This document shows, in pieces, positions 6,195-36,317 of a stretch of DNA of 38,025 nt (position 1 is its first letter; each line of letters starts with the position of its first letter). This DNA comes from Planctomycetota bacterium. GTDB taxonomy: Bacteria > Planctomycetota > B15-G4. Position numbers and translations under genes: made by a program. The stretch is taken from contig JAJDER010000117.1 in the NCBI GenBank assembly GCA_029259725.1, positions 1 to 38,025 on the forward strand, in the 5' to 3' direction. The notes below the pieces were generated by a model. The model was not told the DNA's origin, made no database searches, and saw nothing but the letters and a program-made list of their open reading frames with translations.

Positions 6195-8792
6195 ATGAGC
6201 AGCAGTGACAGACCTCCGTCGGCGGACGAGCAGCCCGAGGACCGCGATCCGGTCTCGGCGATCGTGGAGGAGTTCGCGTACCTGTGCGCGGAGCGGGGCG
6301 GAGTCGATCTGGATGACTTCTGCGGGCGCTGGCCCGACGCGCTGCGGCCGGAGATCCGGCGCCGGTGCGAGGATGCCCTGGCCGTGCAGTCGTTGCTGGG
6401 GCAATCGGAGTCGCCGGCGTCGGCGGTTGCGACGCCGCGGCGGATCGGTGAGTTCGAGATCGTGCGCGAGCTCGGGCGCGGCGGCATGGGTGTGGTCTAC
6501 CTGGCCTTCCAGGAGTCGCTGCGGCGCGACGTGGCGCTCAAGGTCCTCGCCCTGAACCCGGCCATCGGCGCGCGCGCCGTGGAGCGCTTCCGCCGTGAGG
6601 CGCGCTCGGCGGGGCGGCTCGTCCATCCCGGCATCGTGCACGTGCTCAGCGTCGGCGAGGCCGAGGGTTCGATGTACATCGCCATGGAGTACGTCGAGGG
6701 CGCGACGCTGGCCGAGCACCTGCGCGTGCCCGCGCGCACGGCGATCCCCGGCTGGCAGCTCGGCCAGGTCCGCGACCGCGGCTATCCGGCGCGCGTCGCG
6801 GGCCTCGTGGCCGAGGTCGCCGACGCGCTCCACTTCGCCCACCAGAACGGCGTGATCCACCGCGACATCAAACCCGGCAACGTGCTCATGGATCCCCAGG
6901 GCCACCCGCACGTGCTGGACTTCGGCCTGGCCAAGGACCTCGGGGACGCGAGCATCTCGCTCCCCGGCGACCTGGCCGGCACGCCCTACTACATGAGCCC
7001 GGAGCAGGCGCTGGCCAAGCGCATCGGTGTGGATCATCGCACCGACGTGTACTCCCTCGGCGTGGTGCTGTACGAGCTGCTCACGGGCGCGCGGCCGTTC
7101 GAGGGCGACTCGCTGGAGAAGATCCTGTTCGCGATCTCCTTCGGCACTCCGCGCCCGCTGCGTCGCCTCAACCCGCGCGTGCCGCGGGACCTGGAGACGA
7201 TCTGCCAGACCGCCATCGAGAAGAACCCGGCGCACCGCTACGACGACGCGGCGGCCATGGCCCGGGATCTGCGGCATTTCCTCGACTACGAATCGCTCGA
7301 GGTCCACCCGCCGGGGCCGGCCCGGCGGCTGTGGCGCCTGGCCGTGCAGCGCCGACGGGAAGTGGTCACGGCGCTCATGGCGGCGGTGGTCGTGGCGTTG
7401 GTCGCCGGGATGATCTCGCGCGTGCGCCGGAGCAGCGACCTCGACGACGCCATGCGTGAAGTCCGCCTGGCCTCGGCGGGCGAGCTGGCCGAACAGGATG
7501 CACTCCAGTTGCGCGACCTGAGGCGGTCCCTCGCCGAGCTGCTGCAGCAACCCGATCTCGACGCGGGGCGGGCCGAGGAGCTGGCCGGCATCGACGCGCG
7601 CGTCACCGCCGAGGCCGTGGTCCGCCGCGATGAGGCCGTGACCGGATTCTACGCCGAGCTGGATTCGCTGCAGACGGCGCCGCGACCGGACGGCGTGCTC
7701 GACCTGCTGGGAAGGCTGGGAGACCTCGAACAGGCCGCCTGGCTGCTTCCGGAGGACGAGCAGATCGCGGCCCTGCTCGGCGAGGCCCTGCCCCTTCCGC
7801 GTCTCACCGTCAGGGTGGATCCGCTCTACGACGGTGCGCGCGTCTTCGCACGACTCATCGATCCCTTCACCGGCGACCTCGGGCCGCGCCTCGAGCTGGG
7901 GACCGCGCCGCTCGTCCGAGCCGTCGTGGACCCGGGCTTCTACCGCATCGTCGTCGAGGAGCCGACGATCGGGTTCGCCGAGTGCACGCGCATGTTGCCG
8001 TTGGGTCTCGAGGAAGTCGTGCACGCCTGGATCCGGCCCACGACCACCCTGGTGGCGGACATGGCCGAGATCGAGGGCGGCCGCTTCGTGTTCGGCGACG
8101 ACGACGCCGGACACCTGCCGATGCAGCGCCACGAGAGGGGCATCGACGCCTTCCGGATCGATGTCGACGAGGTCACCGGCGCCGAGTACATGGAGTTCCT
8201 CGACGCGACGGGCTGGCCGCCTCCGCTGCAGTGGGGCGGCGAACGCGACCCGCGCCTGGCTGCGCTGCCCGTGTCGGCCCTGTCCTTCGAGGATGCACGC
8301 GCCTACGCGGAGTGGAGCGGAAAGCGCCTGCCCACGATGTTCGAGTGGGAGCGCGCGGCGCGTGGCACCGAGGGTCGCCTGTTTCCGTGGGCCGACGGTA
8401 TGCCCGCCGTGCTCACCGACTGGGCCAATGTCCAGGTGGCGCAGGCCTCGGAGGCGGGCGGCGACCTGTACGCGGGGATCCTGCGCGACCACCTGGCCCA
8501 CGCGCGCCCGCCCGGCTGGGCGCCCGCCGAGGCGGCGACGCCTGAAGGCGTGCGCGACCTGCTGGGCAACGTCTCCGAATGGACCGAGAGCATGCCGGTG
8601 GAGAGCATGCCGAACGGCACCGGCGAGCGGCTCGTCGCCAACGAGACCGAGCGCGTGATCAAGGGCCTGAGCTGGGCGGTGGGGCCGATCCAGCTTGCCC
8701 CGCGCTACGGCGTGGTGCCCACCATGATGGTCTCGCGCGGCGTCATCAGCCCGATGGCCGGGTTGCGCTGTGCGAAGAGTGTGGAACCCTGA
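6195..8792 (+). CDS. Transmembrane Ser/Thr protein kinase with extracytoplasmic FGE-sulfatase-like domain
   Basis: The protein has 865 residues. After an acidic N-terminal region that includes a Planctomycete-type helical segment (VEEFAYLCAERGG), a complete Hanks kinase begins near residue 86. It has the glycine loop LGRGGMGVVY, Lys116 in VALKVL, HRDIKPGNVL with Asp224, DFG at 242-244, the APE-like segment TPYYMSPEQ, and DVYSLGVVLYELLTG. A single membrane helix lies at about 390-411. Residues about 430-610 are helical and then beta-rich and not recognised. From about 621 to the end is an FGE-sulfatase/SUMF1-like domain (RIDVDEVTGAEYMEFL, GKRLPTMFEWERAARG, LLGNVSEWTE, AGLRCAK). The active-site cysteine pair of true formylglycine-generating enzymes is absent around GLSWAVG, so I read this domain as a sensor rather than an FGE. 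Substrates are unknown. Confidence 0.9.
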   Translation: MSSSDRPPSADEQPEDRDPVSAIVEEFAYLCAERGGVDLDDFCGRWPDALRPEIRRRCEDALAVQSLLGQSESPASAVATPRRIGEFEIVRELGRGGMGVVYLAFQESLRRDVALKVLALNPAIGARAVERFRREARSAGRLVHPGIVHVLSVGEAEGSMYIAMEYVEGATLAEHLRVPARTAIPGWQLGQVRDRGYPARVAGLVAEVADALHFAHQNGVIHRDIKPGNVLMDPQGHPHVLDFGLAKDLGDASISLPGDLAGTPYYMSPEQALAKRIGVDHRTDVYSLGVVLYELLTGARPFEGDSLEKILFAISFGTPRPLRRLNPRVPRDLETICQTAIEKNPAHRYDDAAAMARDLRHFLDYESLEVHPPGPARRLWRLAVQRRREVVTALMAAVVVALVAGMISRVRRSSDLDDAMREVRLASAGELAEQDALQLRDLRRSLAELLQQPDLDAGRAEELAGIDARVTAEAVVRRDEAVTGFYAELDSLQTAPRPDGVLDLLGRLGDLEQAAWLLPEDEQIAALLGEALPLPRLTVRVDPLYDGARVFARLIDPFTGDLGPRLELGTAPLVRAVVDPGFYRIVVEEPTIGFAECTRMLPLGLEEVVHAWIRPTTTLVADMAEIEGGRFVFGDDDAGHLPMQRHERGIDAFRIDVDEVTGAEYMEFLDATGWPPPLQWGGERDPRLAALPVSALSFEDARAYAEWSGKRLPTMFEWERAARGTEGRLFPWADGMPAVLTDWANVQVAQASEAGGDLYAGILRDHLAHARPPGWAPAEAATPEGVRDLLGNVSEWTESMPVESMPNGTGERLVANETERVIKGLSWAVGPIQLAPRYGVVPTMMVSRGVISPMAGLRCAKSVEP

Positions 8793-8894
8793 GGGCGTGT
8801 CCTCGCGCGTGACCGACTCGGGGGTGAGTCGAGCACGAGGGGCGGCACGTGGACATCGACGACGCAAGTCACCAACTGCAACAAGGGGGGACGT

Positions 8895-9335
8895 ATGGGC
8901 ATCATCATCATCGAGGCCAAGGTCGTGGTGCAGTTCCGCATCGACGGCTTCGAGCGTGACACCTGGTCCACGGCGCGCCGACACTTCGTGCCGAAGCTCG
9001 GTCAGGAACCGGGGATCAAGGAACATCTCGACGCGTGGAGCAGCGTGTCCATCGAGTACGACGACACGCTCGACGAGCCGACGCGCCACCCGCGCGAGAT
9101 CCTGGCGGAGCAGCTCGTGCTGGTGAACGGGATCCGCTTCGGCAAGCACCCCGAACTCGAATTCGGCCCGATGATCGGCGGCTGCATCCGCGTGGGGGGC
9201 GTCCATTACTGCACGTTCGGGTACCGGCTGCGCATGAAGGGTGCGGGGGACCTGACCTACGAGGATCCGACCACGCGCCGGTCGGTCAGCGTGGACATGG
9301 CGCTCTCGTGGGAGTCGCAGGGTTCCCACCACTAG
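8895..9335 (+). CDS. Hypothetical protein, 146 residues
   Basis: I do not recognise the family. A strong Shine-Dalgarno (AAGGGGGGAC) ends 4 bases before ATG 8895, which supports a real gene. The product starts with a short beta-like segment (MGIIIIEAKVVVQF) and has no signal peptide or membrane span. It is mixed alpha/beta by composition, with two Cys in the segment GGCIRVGGVHYCTFGYRL, and ends in HH. It follows the receptor kinase by 102 bp on the same strand, so it may be co-transcribed. The gap between them holds nothing I recognise. Codon use and GC match the neighbours. Confidence 0.75.
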   Translation: MGIIIIEAKVVVQFRIDGFERDTWSTARRHFVPKLGQEPGIKEHLDAWSSVSIEYDDTLDEPTRHPREILAEQLVLVNGIRFGKHPELEFGPMIGGCIRVGGVHYCTFGYRLRMKGAGDLTYEDPTTRRSVSVDMALSWESQGSHH

Positions 9336-9384
9336 GCGCGCGCGAGCGGGACCCGGCCATCCGGTGAAGTGCTACGCTGAGCCC

Positions 9385-10137
9385 ATGGACGTGCCACGCG
9401 GACTGCCCGGAGGCGGCGCCCCGCTCGGGGGCACGGGGGTCACGGCCGCCGACGAGGTCGTGCTCACGCAGGTCCTGCTCGAGGACGAGGCGGCCGCCGC
9501 GGCGGTGGACCCGCTGCTCGCACCGGACGAGCGCGCGCGCGCCGGCCGCTTCGTGTTCCCGGTCCACGCGCGACGCTTCGTGGTCGCGCGCGGGGCGCTG
9601 CGTTCGATCCTCGGCGCGTTGCTGGACGTGCCGCCGGCCACGCTGCGTCTCGACTACGGCCCGCAGGGCAAGCCGTACCTGCCCGAGGCGCCCGAGGTGT
9701 CGTTCAACCTGACGCATTCCGCCGACCGGGCGACCGTGGCCGTGGCCCTCGGCCGCCGCGTCGGTGTCGACATCGAGGCACCCCGCGGCGTGCGTGACCC
9801 GCTGCGGCTGGCCCGGCGCTTCTTCGCGCCGGGTGAGATCCAGGAGCTCGCCCAGCTCGACGAGGGTCGGCGGCTGGCCGGCTTCCTGCACGGGTGGACG
9901 CGCAAGGAGGCGTTTCTCAAGGCCGTCGGCAGCGGGCTCAGCGGGGGCCTGGACAGTTTCGACGTGTCCCTCACGCCGGGGGTGCCGGCCGTGTTCCGTC
10001 GACTCGGCCCGGACGCCGAGGGCGCCGAGTGGCAGCTGCACGACCTGCCGCCGGCCGCGGGGTGGTTCGGCGCGCTCGTGGTGGAGGGCGGCCCCGTGCA
10101 GGTGCGACAACGGAGCTGGGAGCCCGGTTCGCCGTGA
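9385..10137 (+). CDS. 4'-phosphopantetheinyl transferase, Sfp/AcpT type
   Basis: The product has 250 residues from ATG 9385; an in-frame GTG at 9364 is an alternative start seven codons upstream. It transfers phosphopantetheine from CoA to a serine of acyl or peptidyl carrier proteins. Family motifs are present in order: YGPQGKPYLP at about 91-100, SFNLTHS at 106-112, VGVDIEAPR with Asp129 and Glu131 (magnesium ligands), then FLHGWTRKEAFLKAVG with Trp171, Lys174, Glu175 and Lys179. Length and motif order fit the longer Sfp-like class. No carrier-protein gene is visible in the window. Its stop TGA overlaps the GTG start of the LigD-like gene as GTGA, so the two are probably translated together, an odd pairing of lipid/polyketide priming with DNA repair. 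Confidence 0.93.
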   Translation: MDVPRGLPGGGAPLGGTGVTAADEVVLTQVLLEDEAAAAAVDPLLAPDERARAGRFVFPVHARRFVVARGALRSILGALLDVPPATLRLDYGPQGKPYLPEAPEVSFNLTHSADRATVAVALGRRVGVDIEAPRGVRDPLRLARRFFAPGEIQELAQLDEGRRLAGFLHGWTRKEAFLKAVGSGLSGGLDSFDVSLTPGVPAVFRRLGPDAEGAEWQLHDLPPAAGWFGALVVEGGPVQVRQRSWEPGSP

Positions 10138-14736: not shown

Positions 14737-15681
14737 TCAGCCGCTCTTGCGCTTCCTGGTCGCCGGCTTCTTGCGGGAGGCGCTGGGGGCCAGCTTCGGA
14801 GACGGCTTGGTGCTCGCCGCGGTCTTCCTGGCGGGCGTCTTGCGGGCGCCGGCGCCGGCGGCCTTGCCGGTCTGCTTCGCCGGCGCAGCGCCACCCGCCG
14901 CCTGGGCCGCCGCGACGGACTGCTTGAGCGCGTCCATGAGGTTGATGATCTTCGGCTCCTCGGGGTCGGGCGCGGCCACGACCTCCTGACCATCGATCTT
15001 CAACTGGATCAGCTCGCCGAGCCGTTCGACGTACTCGTCCGTGTAGTGGCCGTAGTCGAACTCCTCGATCGTGGAGGCCTCGATCAGGGTCTGCGCCAGC
15101 GATCGCTCCTCGTCGGTCGTGTCGGCCGGAGGGGCCTCGTCGGCGAAGACGTCGGCGCCCTTCACCTTCTTCGCGACGTGCAGCACGGTCAGCATCAGCA
15201 TGTCGCCGCGCGTCCGCACCAGCACGAGTTGTTCGCGGCCCGACAGGATGATCTTCCCCAGCGCGTGGACGGCGAGATCCGCCATGCCCTGCCGCAGCAG
15301 CGCGTAGGGTTTCTTTCCGGCCACGCCGTCGGGGAGCAGGTAGTAGGTCTTGCCCGCGTGGTAGATCGGATCGACCTCGTCGACCGACACGAACCCGGCG
15401 ATCGACACCGAGCGGTCCGACTCCTTCCGCAGCTTGTCGAGCTCGTCCGGTTCGATGACGACGTACTGATCCTTGGCGTACTCGTACCCGCTGATGATCT
15501 CGTCGCTCTTCAGCTCGCCGTGCTCCTCGCAGATCTTGCGGTAGCGCACGCGCGCGTGGCAGTCCTTGTGCAGCTGGTTGAGCCGGATCTCCTCGGTGGT
15601 GTTGTTCGCGGTGAACGCCTTCACCGGGACCGAGACGAGGCTGAGTTTGAGGAAACCCTTCCAGCTGGAGCGGGGAGCCAT
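14737..15681 (-). CDS. ku: Ku, NHEJ DNA end-binding protein
   Basis: The product has 314 residues from ATG 15681, with a GGGAG-like sequence nearby. Bacterial Ku forms a homodimeric ring on double-strand ends and recruits LigD. The start SSWKGFLKLSLVSVPVKAF is diagnostic of the family, followed by LNQLHKDCHARVRYRKICEE, ISGYEYAKDQYVVIEPDELD, HYTDEYVERLGELIQLKI and the usual late helix. Residues about 260-314 form a Lys/Ala/Pro-rich histone H1-like tail (KTPARKTAAS and SRKKPATRKRKSG). Such extended basic C-termini in other bacterial Ku proteins aid DNA binding and threading. It is the first gene of a minus-strand set (Ku, ligase, BRCT-MerR-TPR). A GTTC-N7-GTTC repeat lies 168 bp upstream. Confidence 0.96.
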   Translation of the reverse strand: MAPRSSWKGFLKLSLVSVPVKAFTANNTTEEIRLNQLHKDCHARVRYRKICEEHGELKSDEIISGYEYAKDQYVVIEPDELDKLRKESDRSVSIAGFVSVDEVDPIYHAGKTYYLLPDGVAGKKPYALLRQGMADLAVHALGKIILSGREQLVLVRTRGDMLMLTVLHVAKKVKGADVFADEAPPADTTDEERSLAQTLIEASTIEEFDYGHYTDEYVERLGELIQLKIDGQEVVAAPDPEEPKIINLMDALKQSVAAAQAAGGAAPAKQTGKAAGAGARKTPARKTAASTKPSPKLAPSASRKKPATRKRKSG

Positions 15682-19954: not shown

Positions 19955-20719
19955 CTACTCCTCGTCCTCGGACGCGGTGAACGTGCTCGCGATGAGGACC
20001 AGCTTCTCACCGGGGCCCTTGGCCTTGCCGAAGCCGACACCCGGCGCGTACCACTTCTTCTCCTTGGCCTTGGGGTCGAGGTCCGTCGTCTCCTGCACGA
20101 GGATGCCGCCCTCGAACTTCTCGGCGGGCGTCTTGAACTTCACGTCCTCCTTGAGCACCTCGACGGTCTCGTCGACGAGCGGGAACAGATCCTCGGGCTT
20201 CCAGGTGTCACCGACCTCCGGGTCCGCGGGCATGAACACGGCGGGCACGAGCGCGGTCGCCGTCTCCTCCGGGTCGCCCTTCTGCGGTCCGCCGACGAGC
20301 CAGCTGCCCTCGTGGTCCTCGATCTCGCCGTCGTCGTAGTTGTCGACGACTTCACCGAAGTAGTAGACGGTGCCGTCGTCAGCCTGAGCGAACCAGTTGA
20401 GTGAGATCTCGGCCAGCTCGCCGTCCTCGAACTCGGTCTCCTGGAGCAGCGCGCACTCGACCATGCTTCCGCCCACGTCGAACATGCGGGTCTCGGTCGA
20501 GTAGAGATCGACGACGACGGTCTTCGCGCCCTCGTCCTTGCCGGTGTAGACCTTCACGCCGCCGGGCGTGAACGGGAAGAACTCGTTGTCGAAGACGAGC
20601 GGGTTGCTGAAGATCGGGCCTCCGAGCAGGGCGGTCGTGGTGGGTGCCACGGCGGCGGAAGGCACGGCGAGGAGAGCCGTGGCCAGCAGCGTGCACAGCG
20701 ATGTGATCAGGGTCTTCAT
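19955..20719 (-). CDS. Secreted protein, paralogue of the product at 23148-23900
   Basis: The product has 254 residues with a signal peptide (MKTLITSLCTLLATALLAVP to about residue 24). I recognise no named domain. It aligns along its whole length with the 250-residue product at 23148. Shared landmarks in order are GP, then FxxGxVKVxxG, TRxFDxxG, LQExEFxxGxLxEI, AQxDxGxVxxFGEV, SWxxGG, DPEE/DPAG, MPAxPxxGD, FP, WxxPGVGxxK. It is acidic, ending ASEDEE. Two such paralogues flank the two-component system, and both appear to have promoters with the same repeat layout. The inferred role is a secreted output of that system. The PGVG ending and all-beta look recall secreted planctomycete proteins of unknown function. 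Confidence 0.82.
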   Translation of the reverse strand: MKTLITSLCTLLATALLAVPSAAVAPTTTALLGGPIFSNPLVFDNEFFPFTPGGVKVYTGKDEGAKTVVVDLYSTETRMFDVGGSMVECALLQETEFEDGELAEISLNWFAQADDGTVYYFGEVVDNYDDGEIEDHEGSWLVGGPQKGDPEETATALVPAVFMPADPEVGDTWKPEDLFPLVDETVEVLKEDVKFKTPAEKFEGGILVQETTDLDPKAKEKKWYAPGVGFGKAKGPGEKLVLIASTFTASEDEE

Positions 20720-20752
20720 GGGTGATCTCCGGTACGTGTGTCGTGAACCGAA

Positions 20753-20808
20753 AACCTATCCCTGCAGCCGCTGGCGTTGTTCACCACAGCATGACCGGGA
20801 CGTTATGC
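20753..20808 (-). promoter_or_regulatory. Candidate activator-dependent promoter of the 19955-20719 gene
   Basis: On the minus strand GCATAAC (20808-20802) and CGGTCAT (20797-20791), then a weaker TGGTGAA (20786-20780), lie exactly 11 bp apart. Then 21 bases separate them from a -10-like TAGGTT (20758-20753), with no TTG-type -35 (AACAAC there). The half-sites match CCGTAAY only 5, 5 and 3 of 7; the case rests on spacing shared with the sites at 23054 and 35363. Confidence 0.4.
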
Positions 20809-20834
20809 GAGGATGATGAAGGGGCCTGCCCGCA

Positions 20835-20863
20835 TTGCGCCTCCAGCGAGACCCGCGTAGGTT
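20835..20863 (+). promoter_or_regulatory. Sigma70-like promoter for the response regulator gene
   Basis: TTGCGC (20835-20840), a 17-bp spacer and TAGGTT (20858-20863) precede the response regulator start by 19 bases. Unlike the proposed target promoters it has a -35, so the two-component pair may be made at a basal level. Confidence 0.5.
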
Positions 20864-20882
20864 TCGAGGGAAGGAAAGACCC

Positions 20883-21560
20883 ATGCGAATCCTCCTCGTC
20901 GAAGACAGCCTACGTCTCGCCCAGTCCGTGCAAGCGGGTCTCCGCAAGCTCGGACACGCGGTCGACGTCGTGCACGAAGGTCTCAAGGGGCTCTCGTACG
21001 CACGCTTGAACCCGTACGACCTGCTGATCCTCGACATCATGCTGCCGGGGCTCGACGGCCTCTCGATCCTGCGCGAGCTGCGCGGCGAGGGGCGCGACAC
21101 GCACGTGCTGCTGCTCACGGCCAAGGACACCGTGGAGGATCGCGTCGGCGGGTTGCAGACCGGCGCGGATGACTACCTGATCAAGCCGTTCGCCTTCGAC
21201 GAACTCGCCGCGCGCGTGGATGCGCTCGGCCGACGCGTACGCGGCCCGTCCACTCCGGTGGTCGAGATCGGCGACCTGTCGCTGGACACCGGCGCGCGCA
21301 CCGCGGTGCGCGGTGAGCGCCTGCTGGATCTCTCACGACGTGAGTACGCCCTGCTCAGGTACCTGGCGTCACGCCCGGGCGAGACCGTGTCGCGCATCGA
21401 GATCGAGGACCACCTCTACGACGAGGACACGTTGCCGCTCAGCAACGTGGTGGCCTCGACCATCTGCGCGCTGCGCGACAAGCTCGAGCAGGACGGGGGC
21501 GAGCGACTGATCCACACGCGACGTGGACTCGGTTACGTGCTCTCCGAGACGACATCGTGA
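20883..21560 (+). CDS. OmpR/PhoB-family response regulator
   Basis: The product has 225 residues from ATG 20883, preceded by GGGAAGGAAAG. The receiver domain (1-115) has the acidic pocket in LLVEDS, phospho-acceptor Asp51 in LLILDIMLPGLDG, LLTAKD and the conserved Lys in DDYLIKPF. The winged-helix domain (about 130-222) has LDLSRREYALLRYLASRPGE, a recognition-helix region LSNVVASTICALRDKL and the wing HTRRGLGYVL. It is partner to the histidine kinase at 21557, whose GTG start overlaps its stop as GTGA. Members of this family bind 7-bp direct repeats with 11-bp periodicity. Such repeats stand before the genes at 20719 (minus), 23148 and 35487, so these are its proposed targets. Confidence 0.95.
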   Translation: MRILLVEDSLRLAQSVQAGLRKLGHAVDVVHEGLKGLSYARLNPYDLLILDIMLPGLDGLSILRELRGEGRDTHVLLLTAKDTVEDRVGGLQTGADDYLIKPFAFDELAARVDALGRRVRGPSTPVVEIGDLSLDTGARTAVRGERLLDLSRREYALLRYLASRPGETVSRIEIEDHLYDEDTLPLSNVVASTICALRDKLEQDGGERLIHTRRGLGYVLSETTS

Positions 21561-23059
21561 ACTCGATCCGGCGTCAACTCACGCTCTCCTTGCTGATCGG
21601 CTCGGTCGTCGTGCTCGGCGTGGCCGGGGTGATCCTGCACGGATCGGTGGGCGATGCGCTGGTCGATCAGTTCGACGTCGGCATGCATGCGCGGGCCCGG
21701 GCACTCGGCGCGCTCGTGGAGCGCGAGGGCATCTACGTCGAGTTCAACTACTCCGAAGAGACCCTGCCCGAGTACGCCGGCGGCGACGACCCGTCCTACT
21801 TCACCTTGTGGCTCGCCGATCTGCCCGATGCGATGACGTCGCCGACGCTGGCCGGCGTGGCGTTCGAACGCCACTCGGGCCCGACGGACGCGCCGGCCTT
21901 CTGGGACCTGGACCTGCCCGACGGCCGCCCGGGCCGGGCGATCGGCATCGATCTCCCGGTCGTGCTCGAGGACGACGACGACGACGACGATGAGGACGGG
22001 GAGGGCGCGCTGCTGGATTCGGCGACCGCGGCCCAGGCCGATCTCCACGTCACCGTGCTCGTCGCGGCCTCGCGCGAGAAGCTCGATGAACAGCTTGCGG
22101 CCCTGGGCGGCGGGCTGCTCTTCGCCGGCGCCACGGCGCTGCTGTTGCTGCTGCTGGGCGTGACCCTGGCCGTGCGCCGCGGCTTGAAGCCCATCGACCG
22201 CCTGGCCAAGGCGGTCGCGGCCGTGGACGCCACCTCGCTTTCGACACGAGTGGGTTCGGACGGCGTGCCCGAAGAGCTGCGCGCGTTCACCGTCACCCTG
22301 GACGAGCTCTTCGAACGGCTGGAGGCGTCCTTCGCGAAGGAGCGGCGCATGACCGCGGCCATGGCCCACGAGCTGCGCACGCCCATCGCCGAGCTGCGCA
22401 CGGCGTCCGACGTGGCGCGCACCTGGCCCGACGACGACGCCATGGTCGACGAAGTCGTGGCCACCGCCGGCGATGTGGCCCAGCGCATGGGAGACTCGAT
22501 CGAATCGCTCATGCGCTACTGCCGGCTGGAGGCGGGGCAGGCACGACCCGAGATCGAGGACGTCGCGCTGCACGCGCTGCTCGACGAGTGCTGGAAGCCC
22601 TACGCCGAACTCGCCGACGAGCGCGGCGTGCGTTTCCTGAACGAGGTGGGCGCCGACGCCGTCGTGGCCTCGGACCGCGGGCTGCTCGGAGTCGTCTTCG
22701 GCAACCTGTTGCACAACGCGGCCAGCTTCGCGTCCGGCGGTGTGATCGTGGCCGCGGTCGACCAGGAGCACCGCAGCGTGACCGTGGTCGTCGCGAACCA
22801 CAGCGACGACCTCGAAGCCGGCGATCTCGAACACATCAGCGAACCCTTCTGGCGCAAGGATCACGCGCGCAGCGACGGCCGCCACAGCGGGCTGGGCCTG
22901 ACGCTCGTCTCGTCCATCGCGGCCGTGCTCGGCCACCGCGCCTCGTTCAAGCTCGAGGACGGCTGTTTCAGCGTGTCGATCCGATTTGATCCAGCCGCCC
23001 CGGCCGTCCCGGAACCGTCCGAGAACGGCCATTCTCGCCAACTCTCGGCCCGGCCGTAA
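21557..23059 (+). CDS. Sensor histidine kinase with a poly-Asp extracytoplasmic loop
   Basis: The product has 500 residues. The first membrane helix is at about 8-28 and the second at about 190-212. Between them is a periplasmic sensor of about 160 residues, starting with a helix (FDVGMHARARALGALVERE). Near its end (about 137-149) it has E, seven consecutive D, then E, D, G and E. A run of this kind points to sensing of divalent cations, polycations or pH; this is inferred from charge alone. A HAMP-like linker follows, then the dimerisation helix with His271 in MAHELRTPIAELR, and an ATPase domain with NLLHNAASFA (N box) and HSGLGLTLVSSIAAVLG (G2 region). Its TAA stop falls within the first repeat of the downstream operator candidate. 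Confidence 0.93.
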   Translation: MNSIRRQLTLSLLIGSVVVLGVAGVILHGSVGDALVDQFDVGMHARARALGALVEREGIYVEFNYSEETLPEYAGGDDPSYFTLWLADLPDAMTSPTLAGVAFERHSGPTDAPAFWDLDLPDGRPGRAIGIDLPVVLEDDDDDDDEDGEGALLDSATAAQADLHVTVLVAASREKLDEQLAALGGGLLFAGATALLLLLLGVTLAVRRGLKPIDRLAKAVAAVDATSLSTRVGSDGVPEELRAFTVTLDELFERLEASFAKERRMTAAMAHELRTPIAELRTASDVARTWPDDDAMVDEVVATAGDVAQRMGDSIESLMRYCRLEAGQARPEIEDVALHALLDECWKPYAELADERGVRFLNEVGADAVVASDRGLLGVVFGNLLHNAASFASGGVIVAAVDQEHRSVTVVVANHSDDLEAGDLEHISEPFWRKDHARSDGRHSGLGLTLVSSIAAVLGHRASFKLEDGCFSVSIRFDPAAPAVPEPSENGHSRQLSARP

Positions 23060-23099
23060 CGTGCCCGTAATCCTCGGCGCCTCCCGGTCGGGATACGCT
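23054..23099 (+). promoter_or_regulatory. 11-bp-phased direct repeat and -10 box before the 23148 gene
   Basis: CCGTAAC (23054-23060), 4 bases and CCGTAAT (23065-23071) are followed by 22 bases and a -10-like TACGCT (23094-23099). The -35 position reads TCCTCG, so an activator is probably needed. The 7+4 layout is that of PhoB/OmpR-type sites. Part of the first repeat is the kinase stop codon, which limits its weight. Confidence 0.6.
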
Positions 23100-23147
23100 G
23101 TTCAACAGACCACCCCATCTCCGCAGCCCTGCCCAGGAGCCGCCTCG

Positions 23148-23900
23148 ATGCTCACACGCACCGTCATCGCTACGCTGCTCACCTGCACCCTGTCCGCCGC
23201 AGACCTCACCGCCGGCGATCCCGTGCCGACGTTCAGCGGCCCCACCACCATCACCAACGTCTACGCGCCCTTCGAGGTCGGGACGGTGAAGGTCTTCCAC
23301 GGCCGCTCCGCGGGTGAGCGCACGACCACGGTCATCGCGCACGCGGAGGACACCCGGACCTTCGTCTTCGATGGCGAGGAGGTGGTGTGCTGCATCCTCC
23401 AGGAGAAGGAGTTCACCGCCGGCGCCCTGGTCGAGATCACGACGCACTACCTGGCCCAGGACGACGCCGGCAACGTGCGCGCGTTCGGTGAGGTCTCGAT
23501 CGAGATCGAAGCGGGTGTCGTGATCGGCGCGGAGGAGGACAGTTGGATCCTCGGCGGCGCGACGCTGCCGACCGACCCGGCCGGGGTCTACAACGCCGAG
23601 ACGCCGCAGATGTACATGCCCGCCAACCCACAGCTGGGCGATGTGTTCGATCAGGAGGCCTTCCCGCATTCCAGCGAGAGCCTGACGGTCGTCGGCGTGG
23701 GCAACAAGGTGAAGGTCCCGTCGGGCAAGTACGGCTGGTCGCTCAAGCTCAAGGAAACCGGCGAGGAAGAGGAGGACGACGACGACGGACCTGAGTACCG
23801 TTGGATCGTTCCCGGAGTGGGCGAAGTGAAGAGCAAGTCGTCCAAGTCCAAGTCGCGCCTGTTCGACACCTCCCTGCTCCAGACCGATCTCGGCGGCTGA
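23148..23900 (+). CDS. Secreted acidic-tract protein, paralogue of the product at 19955-20719
   Basis: The product has 250 residues. ATG 23148 is chosen for its AGGAG Shine-Dalgarno (about 9 bases upstream) and the signal peptide it creates (to about residue 20-24). No known domain is recognised. Landmarks shared with the gene at 19955 include FEVGTVKVFHG, TRTFVFDGEEVV, LQEKEFTAGALVEI, LAQDDAGNVRAFGEV, MPANPQLGD and WIVPGVGEVKSK. It differs in a striking acidic run near residues 205-213 (five Glu then five Asp with small breaks) and a Ser/Lys-rich stretch (KSKSSKSKSR). It lies 88 bp after the histidine kinase behind its own repeat-containing promoter, and 52 bp before the PepSY-like lipoprotein. 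The acidic run suggests cation binding outside the cell. Confidence 0.85.
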   Translation: MLTRTVIATLLTCTLSAADLTAGDPVPTFSGPTTITNVYAPFEVGTVKVFHGRSAGERTTTVIAHAEDTRTFVFDGEEVVCCILQEKEFTAGALVEITTHYLAQDDAGNVRAFGEVSIEIEAGVVIGAEEDSWILGGATLPTDPAGVYNAETPQMYMPANPQLGDVFDQEAFPHSSESLTVVGVGNKVKVPSGKYGWSLKLKETGEEEEDDDDGPEYRWIVPGVGEVKSKSSKSKSRLFDTSLLQTDLGG

Positions 23901-23952
23901 GCCGCAGACCGAACCCGCTCGCGCGATCCCGCGCGTCCCCGAGGAGAGTCCG

Positions 23953-24381
23953 ATGTCCCCAGTTCGCTGGAGCACCCTGTTCGTCGCCCTGCTCGCCGGT
24001 CTCGCCGCCCTGTTGACCGGCTGCTACGGCAGTCCCGTCGCGAGCGAGGTCGAGATCACCACCGGTGATGCGGTGGTCGCAGACGGCGGCGCCGTGGCCA
24101 CCCCGGCCGCCATGCGGGTCGACGATGACGACGGTGACGGCGATGACGGTGACGAGGACGAAGACGAGATCGAGGAGGAGATCGCCCTCGACGCCATCCC
24201 CGCGGCGGTGCTGGATGCGGCGCTGGCGCGCCTGCCCGGGCTGGTCGTGGAGCAGGCCGAGATCGAGCACACCTCCGCCGGCCCGATCTACGATCTCGAA
24301 GGCACCATCGATGGGGTGGCCTGGGAGATCGAGGTCACGCCCGCCGGTGAGGTCGTCGAGGTCGAGCAGGACGACGGCTGA
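23953..24381 (+). CDS. Acidic PepSY-like lipoprotein
   Basis: The product has 142 residues with a strong GAGGAG Shine-Dalgarno. The leader ends in a good lipobox (ALLTGC, Cys24), so it is a lipid-anchored exported protein. Residues about 55-80 are almost all Asp/Glu with a few Gly. The C-terminal 65 residues look like a PepSY-type fold: IPAAVLDAALARLPGLVVEQ, an acid-rich strand, then YDLEGTIDGVAWEIEVTPAG and EVVEVEQDDG. PepSY and PepSY-like proteins are often found beside two-component systems and may bind or inhibit proteins or ligands at the envelope. It is probably co-transcribed with the gene at 23148. Together with the sensor loop this is the third acidic tract in the cluster. The exact function is unknown. 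Confidence 0.82.
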   Translation: MSPVRWSTLFVALLAGLAALLTGCYGSPVASEVEITTGDAVVADGGAVATPAAMRVDDDDGDGDDGDEDEDEIEEEIALDAIPAAVLDAALARLPGLVVEQAEIEHTSAGPIYDLEGTIDGVAWEIEVTPAGEVVEVEQDDG

Positions 24382-35350: not shown

Positions 35351-35407
35351 CCGTACCGCCGCCCGTAACCCCGCCGTAACCCGACCCGCCGCGCAGCGCG
35401 ATAGTCT
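35351..35407 (+). promoter_or_regulatory. CCGTAAC direct repeats and -10 box of the VTC operon
   Basis: CCGTACC (35351-35357), CCGTAAC (35363-35369) and CCGTAAC (35374-35380) are followed by 21 bases and TAGTCT (35402-35407). The last two copies are 11 bp apart; the first is 12 bp away. The -35 position (ACCCGA) is non-consensus. Word and spacing match the site at 23054, suggesting control by the regulator at 20883. Confidence 0.6.
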
Positions 35408-35486
35408 TCCGTGAAGAACGCGTTGGCCGCGGATGAAGGTCTGTCGAGATCCCCGGCCGCCCCCCGCGTTCAGCGAAGGCGGAACG

Positions 35487-36317
35487 ATGGCCGGCAAGAC
35501 TCCAGACACGGGGTTCGACACGACGTTGACGTCACGGTACGAGTGCAAGTACCTGATCGACGAGTTCACCGCCGCCGCCCTGAGGCGCTACCTGGCGAGC
35601 CACGCGAAGCTGGATCCCTACTCCGCGGCGTCTGCGGATCACCGCTATCGAGTGCTGAGTCTGTACCTCGACACCCCGGGCCTGCGGCTCTACCGGGACA
35701 CGGCCCAGGGTGTGCGCAACCGGTACAAGCTGCGCCTCCGGTACTACGCCGAGGAGGGCGACGGCCCGGTGTTCTTCGAGGTCAAGAAGCGTGCCGACGT
35801 GATCGTCCGCAAGAGCCGCGAGCTCATGAGTCGAGAGCAGGCCCAGGACTTCCTGCTGCACGGGTCCTGCCATCGGAATGCCCGGAACGGGGATGACCTG
35901 GACCAGTTCCTGGATCGCTGCCGGGAGATGGGGGCCGTCCCGGCCCTGCGCCTGCGCTACTGGCGCGAAGCGTGGGAGTCGCGGGCCTCCGACCCGGTGC
36001 GGATCACCTTCGACACCACGGTCGAGCACTGCATGCTCTCGGCCCCCGGCCTGGTGGAGACGCGCCCCGCGTGGCGACGGACGGGCTTCGGCGCGCCCGT
36101 GATCCTGGAGGTCAAGTTCACGGATCTGCGGCCGCGCTGGCTCGACCAGATGCTGCAGCACTTCAACCTCGACAAGGTCTCGGTGGCGAAGTACGCCGAG
36201 TCGATCGAGGAGATCCTGCGGGCAGGGCGCCTCTCCGTGCTCGAAGCCCGCATGGGACTGGGGCTGCACGGTCTCGACGGGGGCGCCACGGCGGTTCCGC
36301 GCGGGCGGGCGTCGTGA
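35487..36317 (+). CDS. VTC-domain (polyphosphate-polymerase-like) protein
   Basis: The product has 276 residues from ATG 35487 (Shine-Dalgarno AAGGCGGA); ATG 35433 is an in-frame alternative. The fold is the VTC/triphosphate-tunnel type: SRYECKYLID with Glu19 and Lys21, RVLSLYLDTPGLRLYRD, NRYKLRLRYY (Lys81, Arg83, Arg85), FFEVKKR (Glu98, Lys100, Lys101), RKSR, then LRLRYWREAWES, RITFDTTV and ILEVKFTDLRPRW. The basic and acidic tunnel residues that handle phosphate chains and metal are kept, so catalysis is plausible. Yeast Vtc4 makes polyphosphate from ATP. Bacterial VTC proteins next to DUF4956, often with CotH kinases, have no proven reaction to my knowledge. It is first gene of an operon and its stop overlaps the DUF4956 start (GTGA). 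Confidence 0.9.
   Translation: MAGKTPDTGFDTTLTSRYECKYLIDEFTAAALRRYLASHAKLDPYSAASADHRYRVLSLYLDTPGLRLYRDTAQGVRNRYKLRLRYYAEEGDGPVFFEVKKRADVIVRKSRELMSREQAQDFLLHGSCHRNARNGDDLDQFLDRCREMGAVPALRLRYWREAWESRASDPVRITFDTTVEHCMLSAPGLVETRPAWRRTGFGAPVILEVKFTDLRPRWLDQMLQHFNLDKVSVAKYAESIEEILRAGRLSVLEARMGLGLHGLDGGATAVPRGRAS

Follow-up and report, generated by a model that had tools for sequence, protein, structure and literature searches.

The window, that is, the whole 38,025-nucleotide stretch analyzed here (contig JAJDER010000117.1 of a Planctomycetota bacterium, assembly GCA_029259725.1), encompasses a block of five intact genes. A response regulator (RR) and a histidine kinase (HK) are flanked by two paralogous secreted proteins, denoted P1 and P2, and a PepSY-like lipoprotein follows, a layout proposed in an initial sequence-only reading of this region and confirmed here. 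The genes and the shorter features, with their positions in the window, are:

19955..20719, minus strand: P1, 254 aa, secreted protein with a Sec-type signal peptide, predicted to be all-beta; intact ORF, divergent from RR
20799..20817, minus strand: 19-bp element ATCATCCTCGCATAACGTC in the divergent intergenic region between P1 and RR; putative RR autoregulatory site
20883..21560, plus strand: RR, 225 aa, OmpR/CopR-type response regulator
21557..23059, plus strand: HK, 500 aa, membrane sensor histidine kinase, with a GTGA overlap with RR
21971..21991, plus strand: Asp7 run within the HK periplasmic loop, read directly
23055..23071, plus strand: CGTAAC-N5-CGTAAT direct repeat with an 11-bp period, upstream of P2
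23148..23900, plus strand: P2, 250 aa, secreted paralogue of P1 with a signal peptide
23763..23786, plus strand: Glu4-Asp4 run in P2, read directly
23953..24381, plus strand: PepSY-like lipoprotein, 142 aa, lipobox LTGC, second gene after HK; acidic tract at about residues 57-76, PepSY-like region at residues 85-129

In Pfam searches, the RR matched Response_reg (7e-25) and Trans_reg_C (3.7e-19), and the HK matched HisKA (4.2e-9) and HATPase_c (2e-9), with the HELRTP box kept. The best NCBIfam match of the RR was TIGR01387 (cztR_silR_copR), at 209 bits against a cut-off of 279.2, and the HK scored 180.2 bits against TIGR01386, for which the cut-off is 292.55; with both scores under the curated NCBIfam cut-offs, the pair was not assigned to the CzcR/SilR/CopR and CzcS/SilS/CopS heavy-metal two-component systems. 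The single PepSY-like region of the lipoprotein also scores under the Pfam cut-off (E=0.0056), which is why a search of the whole genome with PF03413 missed this protein. DbfQRS-like PepSY two-component modules encode an exported PepSY protein no more than four genes from RR/HK, and this is the arrangement found in the window, the PepSY score being below the cut-off. Elsewhere in the window, positions 14737-15681 (minus strand) encode a Ku-domain protein (PF02735, 1.3e-41).

P1 and P2 share 37% identity over nearly their full length (E=1.5e-34), and neither they nor any of 28 relatives reached a Pfam or NCBIfam family, in agreement with their initial description as full-length paralogues of no recognized family. 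Scanning genome contigs with an alignment of the classical members as the query, we confirmed at least 576 P-family loci, those listed spanning archaea and many bacterial phyla; on plasmids, there were only two partial matches, and no match was found in PHROGs. The same genome contains two further distant paralogues on other contigs (C164:34062-34637 and C80:33604-34161, the latter at a contig end), with no RR or HK found in the sequence examined around them. Genomes of the same family hold a related unlinked set (L044, L046, L048). In a tree of 111 P domains, P1 and P2 fall within one clade of 13 (SH-aLRT 96), where P2 clusters with the P2 genes of the same family (SH-aLRT 99) and P1 clusters with copies from a neighboring family (SH-aLRT 82). 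Three tandem P domains occur in one polypeptide in L052 (7355-9400) and in L054 (about 7700-9830), from another planctomycete family; no RR or HK was detected within about 8 kb of the L054 copy.

The AlphaFold2 model of P1, built from the family alignment, consists of strands throughout (pLDDT 90.3, pTM 0.83), and the P fold is accordingly predicted to be all-beta. Its best PDB match was the lipoprotein BDI_3050 (4fvs), with a Foldseek E-value of 3.5e-6 and a probability of 1.00, although the TM-score was low (0.39-0.47) and the rmsd was 13 Å. In profile searches, 4fvs and 3fzx, the latter representing the YmcC fold of DUF3108 proteins (PMC4364669), matched P over the same C-terminal stretch as each other, which spans about 50 residues. 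A weak match to PF21347 was seen in 2 of 30 P members (best 0.017), without reaching the Pfam gathering score. Judging from the model and these profile matches, the P proteins are probably remote relatives of the YmcC/DUF3108-like envelope lipoproteins, from which they differ in the low TM-score, the short span of sequence similarity and scores below the family threshold. The third-ranked fold match to P1 (E=0.017, TM about 0.33), without detectable sequence similarity, was EipB (DUF1849), a periplasmic beta-spiral protein required for envelope integrity in Brucella (PMC10787603). A fold search in BFVD yielded no significant match.

Scattering of the paralogues away from two-component genes in related genomes had been set beforehand as an outcome that would speak against a module. 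Instead, the linkage recurs: within the P1/P2 clade, an OmpR-type RR/HK pair adjoins all 12 members with readable flanks, and the 13th (L041) has its start 727 bases away from the end of its contig. For the wider family, we examined 80 named loci, the best 80 of at least 576 by identity to a member that lacks a linked kinase, so that these loci were not selected for linkage. At 36 of the 80, from at least nine phyla (Planctomycetota, Actinomycetota, Pseudomonadota, Chloroflexota, Nitrospirota, Hydrogenedentota, Verrucomicrobiota, Acidobacteriota and Thermodesulfobacteriota), an RR/HK pair lies within 1.5 kb, compared to 2.6% of the control positions, which were taken from the same loci at distances from P above 6.5 kb. 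The corresponding binomial p (about 1e-35, or about 1e-15 with the background set at 10%) presumes independent loci and, because these are not independent, is only indicative. The linked state clusters on the tree, with 23 changes versus 37 when the labels are shuffled. For about half of the wider family (44 of the 80 loci, plus the two distant copies in this genome), no kinase lies next to P, and hence the P proteins cannot need this system everywhere; kinase linkage is a repeated, not a universal, feature of the family.

The arrangement of the linked genes varies. The commonest layout of the 36 loci is divergent, with P and RR transcribed away from each other (14), followed by P before RR-HK (11), RR-HK before P (9) and a convergent order (2); divergent gene pairs are typical of targets with a common control region. 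Among planctomycetes, the order RR-HK-P2 is found in L043, L045 and L047, all of the same family as the window, and RR-HK-P is found in L036. Other orders are P-RR-HK-PepSY (L042), RR-HK-P followed by a triple P and PepSY (L052), and PepSY-RR-HK divergent from P (L055), and the complete genome of the planctomycete Pla86 (L099) carries the same four-gene block as P-PepSY-RR-HK. In L037 and L038, two divergent RR-HK-P units enclose a PepSY-like gene. The simplest history of the window would be that P1 is the remnant of a second, divergent unit of this kind that has lost its kinase pair.

PepSY genes, detected with a home-made profile and Pfam, are present at no fewer than 7 planctomycete loci, the window included, and among the named loci they lie nearby in 10 of the 36 linked but only 2 of the 44 unlinked cases. 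A PepSY-like gene is located downstream of P in L043, L045 and L052. Several related modules contain Pfam PepSY matches above the cut-off (L052, 2.5e-9; L055, 1.8e-7; L042, 3.3e-11), and two or more PepSY regions occur in L042, L043, L114 and L143. Furthermore, the home-made profile, with no Pfam PepSY call, located PepSY inside histidine kinase ORFs in L114 (12113-13792) and L143 (12473-14188), the former also with a 2CSK_N sensor, and fused to P in L053 (7757-8785, minus strand). Gene fusions usually join parts that act together.

The upstream regions of these genes share sequence elements. Conservation of the 19-bp element upstream of RR extends over four genomes of the same family, and a leave-one-out PWM placed the element at rank 1 in the window and in two of the three relatives, and at rank 2 in the third. 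Upstream of P2, it ranked first in L047 and second in L045 but was weak in the window (rank 6) and in L043 (rank 8). Located between P1 and RR, the element could, from its position, serve both genes. Upstream of P2 in the window is a perfect CGTAAY-N5-CGTAAY repeat, one of only two in the 4.79-Mb genome, and the same repeat is found upstream of RR and P in L037 and L038. In 358 kb of loci, we counted 7 copies of the shorter form, GTAA-N7-GTAA, five of these upstream of module RR or P genes, including P2 of the window, compared to zero occurrences at the other spacings from 3 to 13. Plain 7-mer direct-repeat scans returned mostly GC-rich chance matches, and the GTAA-spaced repeat was the sole one to be distinguished from other spacings. 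An 11-bp period is expected for an OmpR-type dimer. These common upstream elements suggest that RR regulates its own operon and controls the P genes, and we consider this regulatory wiring, as read from the DNA, to be reasonably supported. The second perfect repeat in the genome, at 35364-35380, precedes a VTC-domain gene (35481-36317) by about 100 bp, and DUF4956 and HlyD-like genes come next; this repeat is a possible further target of RR, with a possible tie to polyphosphate-type metabolism.

Acidic tracts in exported parts had been put forward as a feature shared by HK, P2 and the lipoprotein, and this holds; P1 has no tract of this sort. The initial charge counts are nearly right. The seven consecutive Asp residues in the HK loop are real, and the genome contains just one further (GAY)7 run besides the one encoding them. 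The run in P2, reported as of a Glu5/Asp5 type, consists of Glu4-Asp4, and in the lipoprotein, to which an Asp/Glu stretch of about 25 residues had been ascribed, 16 of 20 residues are acidic. In a set made up of the window and eight loci related to it, 15 of the 29 module proteins contain a 20-residue segment with 10 or more acidic residues, versus 4 of the 78 exported-like neighbors (p=2e-7), and 11 of the 29 reach 12 or more, versus 0/166. The strongest tracts are in PepSY proteins (18 of 20 residues in L038; an Asp tail in L055), followed by the HK loops of the same family, where the periplasmic loop is acidic in four of four orthologues. The tracts differ in length and position, and the loop tract does not extend to HKs of modules further removed from the window (L052, L055 and those on the minus strand in L037 and L038), so that the acidic signal is not universal. 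The PepSY-like gene of L038 (10204-10605) encodes a long Asp tail; in L037 (10530-10865), the Asp tail is out of frame, owing to a frameshift or an assembly error.

Known systems resemble parts of this module. According to the DbfQRS report (PMC12714742), PepSY two-component modules are widespread, and in Vibrio cholerae, the periplasmic PepSY protein DbfQ binds the sensory domain of DbfS with a Kd of 30 nM and shifts it to phosphatase activity, the system being activated by outer-membrane damage or polymyxin B and responding to LPS defects. DbfQRS and BqsRS with PA2658/PA2659 (Pseudomonas aeruginosa) likewise combine a small exported PepSY protein, an RR and a membrane HK, in a variable gene order that includes opposite strands, as in the modules described here; the window differs from DbfQRS as presented there in having, as its PepSY protein, a lipoprotein that bears an acidic tract, and in the addition of beta-proteins of the P family. 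UipA of Microbacterium, which is adjoined by UipRS, and LanP are also acidic PepSY proteins that bind metals through acidic residues (PMC8963506, PMC11845868). These contain tandem PepSY domains, however, whereas the window lipoprotein has one and a separate acidic stretch, which places it outside the UipA type. Finally, in the periplasmic sensor PhoQ, the acidic cluster EDDDDAE serves to detect divalent cations and cationic peptides (PMC8534201). In our model of the HK sensor (pLDDT 84.7), the acidic loop is disordered, and the folds closest to the model by TM-score (0.48-0.51) include the sensor domains of PhoQ and WalK, a resemblance that is non-significant by E-value (0.37-0.7); by sequence, the HK best matches CzcS/QseC models. 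PhoQ, the metal-binding UipA and LanP, and DbfQRS with its response to polymyxin B put the proposed sensing of cations, polycations or pH on a better footing than the initial reading could give it, although it is still a guess, plausible for cations or polycations; nothing speaks for the buffering that was proposed with it.

Several other explanations of this gene block have to be considered. The vicinity of unrelated genes by chance, for which nothing speaks except the existence of unlinked P copies, is refuted by the 36 of 80 loci against a 2.6% background together with the 12 of 12 in the clade of P1 and P2, and we regard it as extremely improbable. In another explanation, the P proteins would be secreted proteins with a structural or surface role of their own that happen to be regulated by an ordinary two-component system, with no common sensing role. 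This would fit the 44 family loci without a linked kinase and the tandem multi-domain copies in L052 and L054, which look structural; the cross-phylum linkage with its differing gene orders, together with the PepSY-P fusion in L053, favors a common role, and we consider such independence unlikely.

The remaining alternatives concern the signal. A metal-stress module similar to CzcRS or UipRS would sense a specific metal (Fe, U or lanthanide-like, Cu or Zn), which the acidic PepSY protein and the beta-proteins would sequester. The heavy-metal subfamilies TIGR01387 and TIGR01386 are the best scores of RR and HK, UipA and LanP bind metals, UipA being encoded beside UipRS (PMC8963506, PMC11845868), and the PepSY-HK fusion of L114 contains the 2CSK_N sensor. 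Nevertheless, both subfamily scores are sub-threshold, clustering of the neighbors of kinase-linked members recovered no recurrent efflux or transport partner, and inspection by eye identified no Cys/His-rich motif in P or in the HK loops, making this explanation quite unlikely. Somewhat less unlikely, in our estimation, is a pure envelope-damage sensor of the DbfQRS type, in which the acidic tracts would be solubility or electrostatic features with no ligand role. Its PepSY and two-component architecture is the same as that of DbfQRS, which answers LPS defects and polymyxin B (PMC12714742), and the tracts are not constant in length or position and do not extend to distant members; however, they occur in three different exported proteins of the module, always in exported parts and far above the level in neighboring proteins.

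On balance, we consider it fairly probable that this gene block is a two-component module of the PepSY type for envelope sensing, joined to a family of secreted beta-proteins, in which a cation, polycation or damage signal causes RR to drive P1 and P2. In this five-gene module, HK would be an inner-membrane kinase whose periplasmic domain carries the disordered acidic loop, and the acidic PepSY lipoprotein, similarly to DbfQ, would probably bind that domain and tilt the balance between kinase and phosphatase, a role to which the natural PepSY-HK fusions of L114 and L143 lend indirect support. The signal would be the state of the envelope acting on the acidic surfaces of HK and the PepSY protein: a change such as loss of bound cations, exposure to cationic peptides or outer-membrane damage would lead HK to phosphorylate RR. 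Phosphorylated RR may then bind the repeats of 11-bp period that precede its own operon and P2, and reach P1 through the common divergent region, so that the secreted beta-proteins would be produced as the response. By comparison with YmcC/DUF3108-like proteins, P1 and P2 might have a function in the envelope, either as effectors or in feedback co-sensing. We also put forward, tentatively, the more general possibility that the P family is a hitherto unrecognized, dedicated partner, either co-sensor or principal response protein, of a large class of PepSY-type two-component systems in at least nine phyla, forming with them a triad that reads envelope-bound cations or polycations.

The initial proposal of a linked envelope-sensing module is thus well supported by the linkage within and beyond planctomycetes, the fusions and the upstream elements. 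Its description as undescribed stands in part: the combination of PepSY with a two-component system is known from DbfQRS and BqsRS (PMC12714742) and from UipRS (PMC8963506), whereas the P1/P2 family as a recurrent partner appears to be undescribed. Among open-licence papers, we found none on the P family itself or its partnership with PepSY two-component systems, on the fusions, or on a planctomycete PepSY two-component system. The linkage to an OmpR-type two-component system and PepSY provides the first functional context for a family that has no Pfam or NCBIfam model and encompasses at least 576 loci, extends DbfQRS-like signaling to planctomycetes with an added component, and offers concrete candidate regulator sites that are open to test. 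The P family is probably a functional component, so far overlooked, of an envelope-sensing system that is widespread among bacteria.
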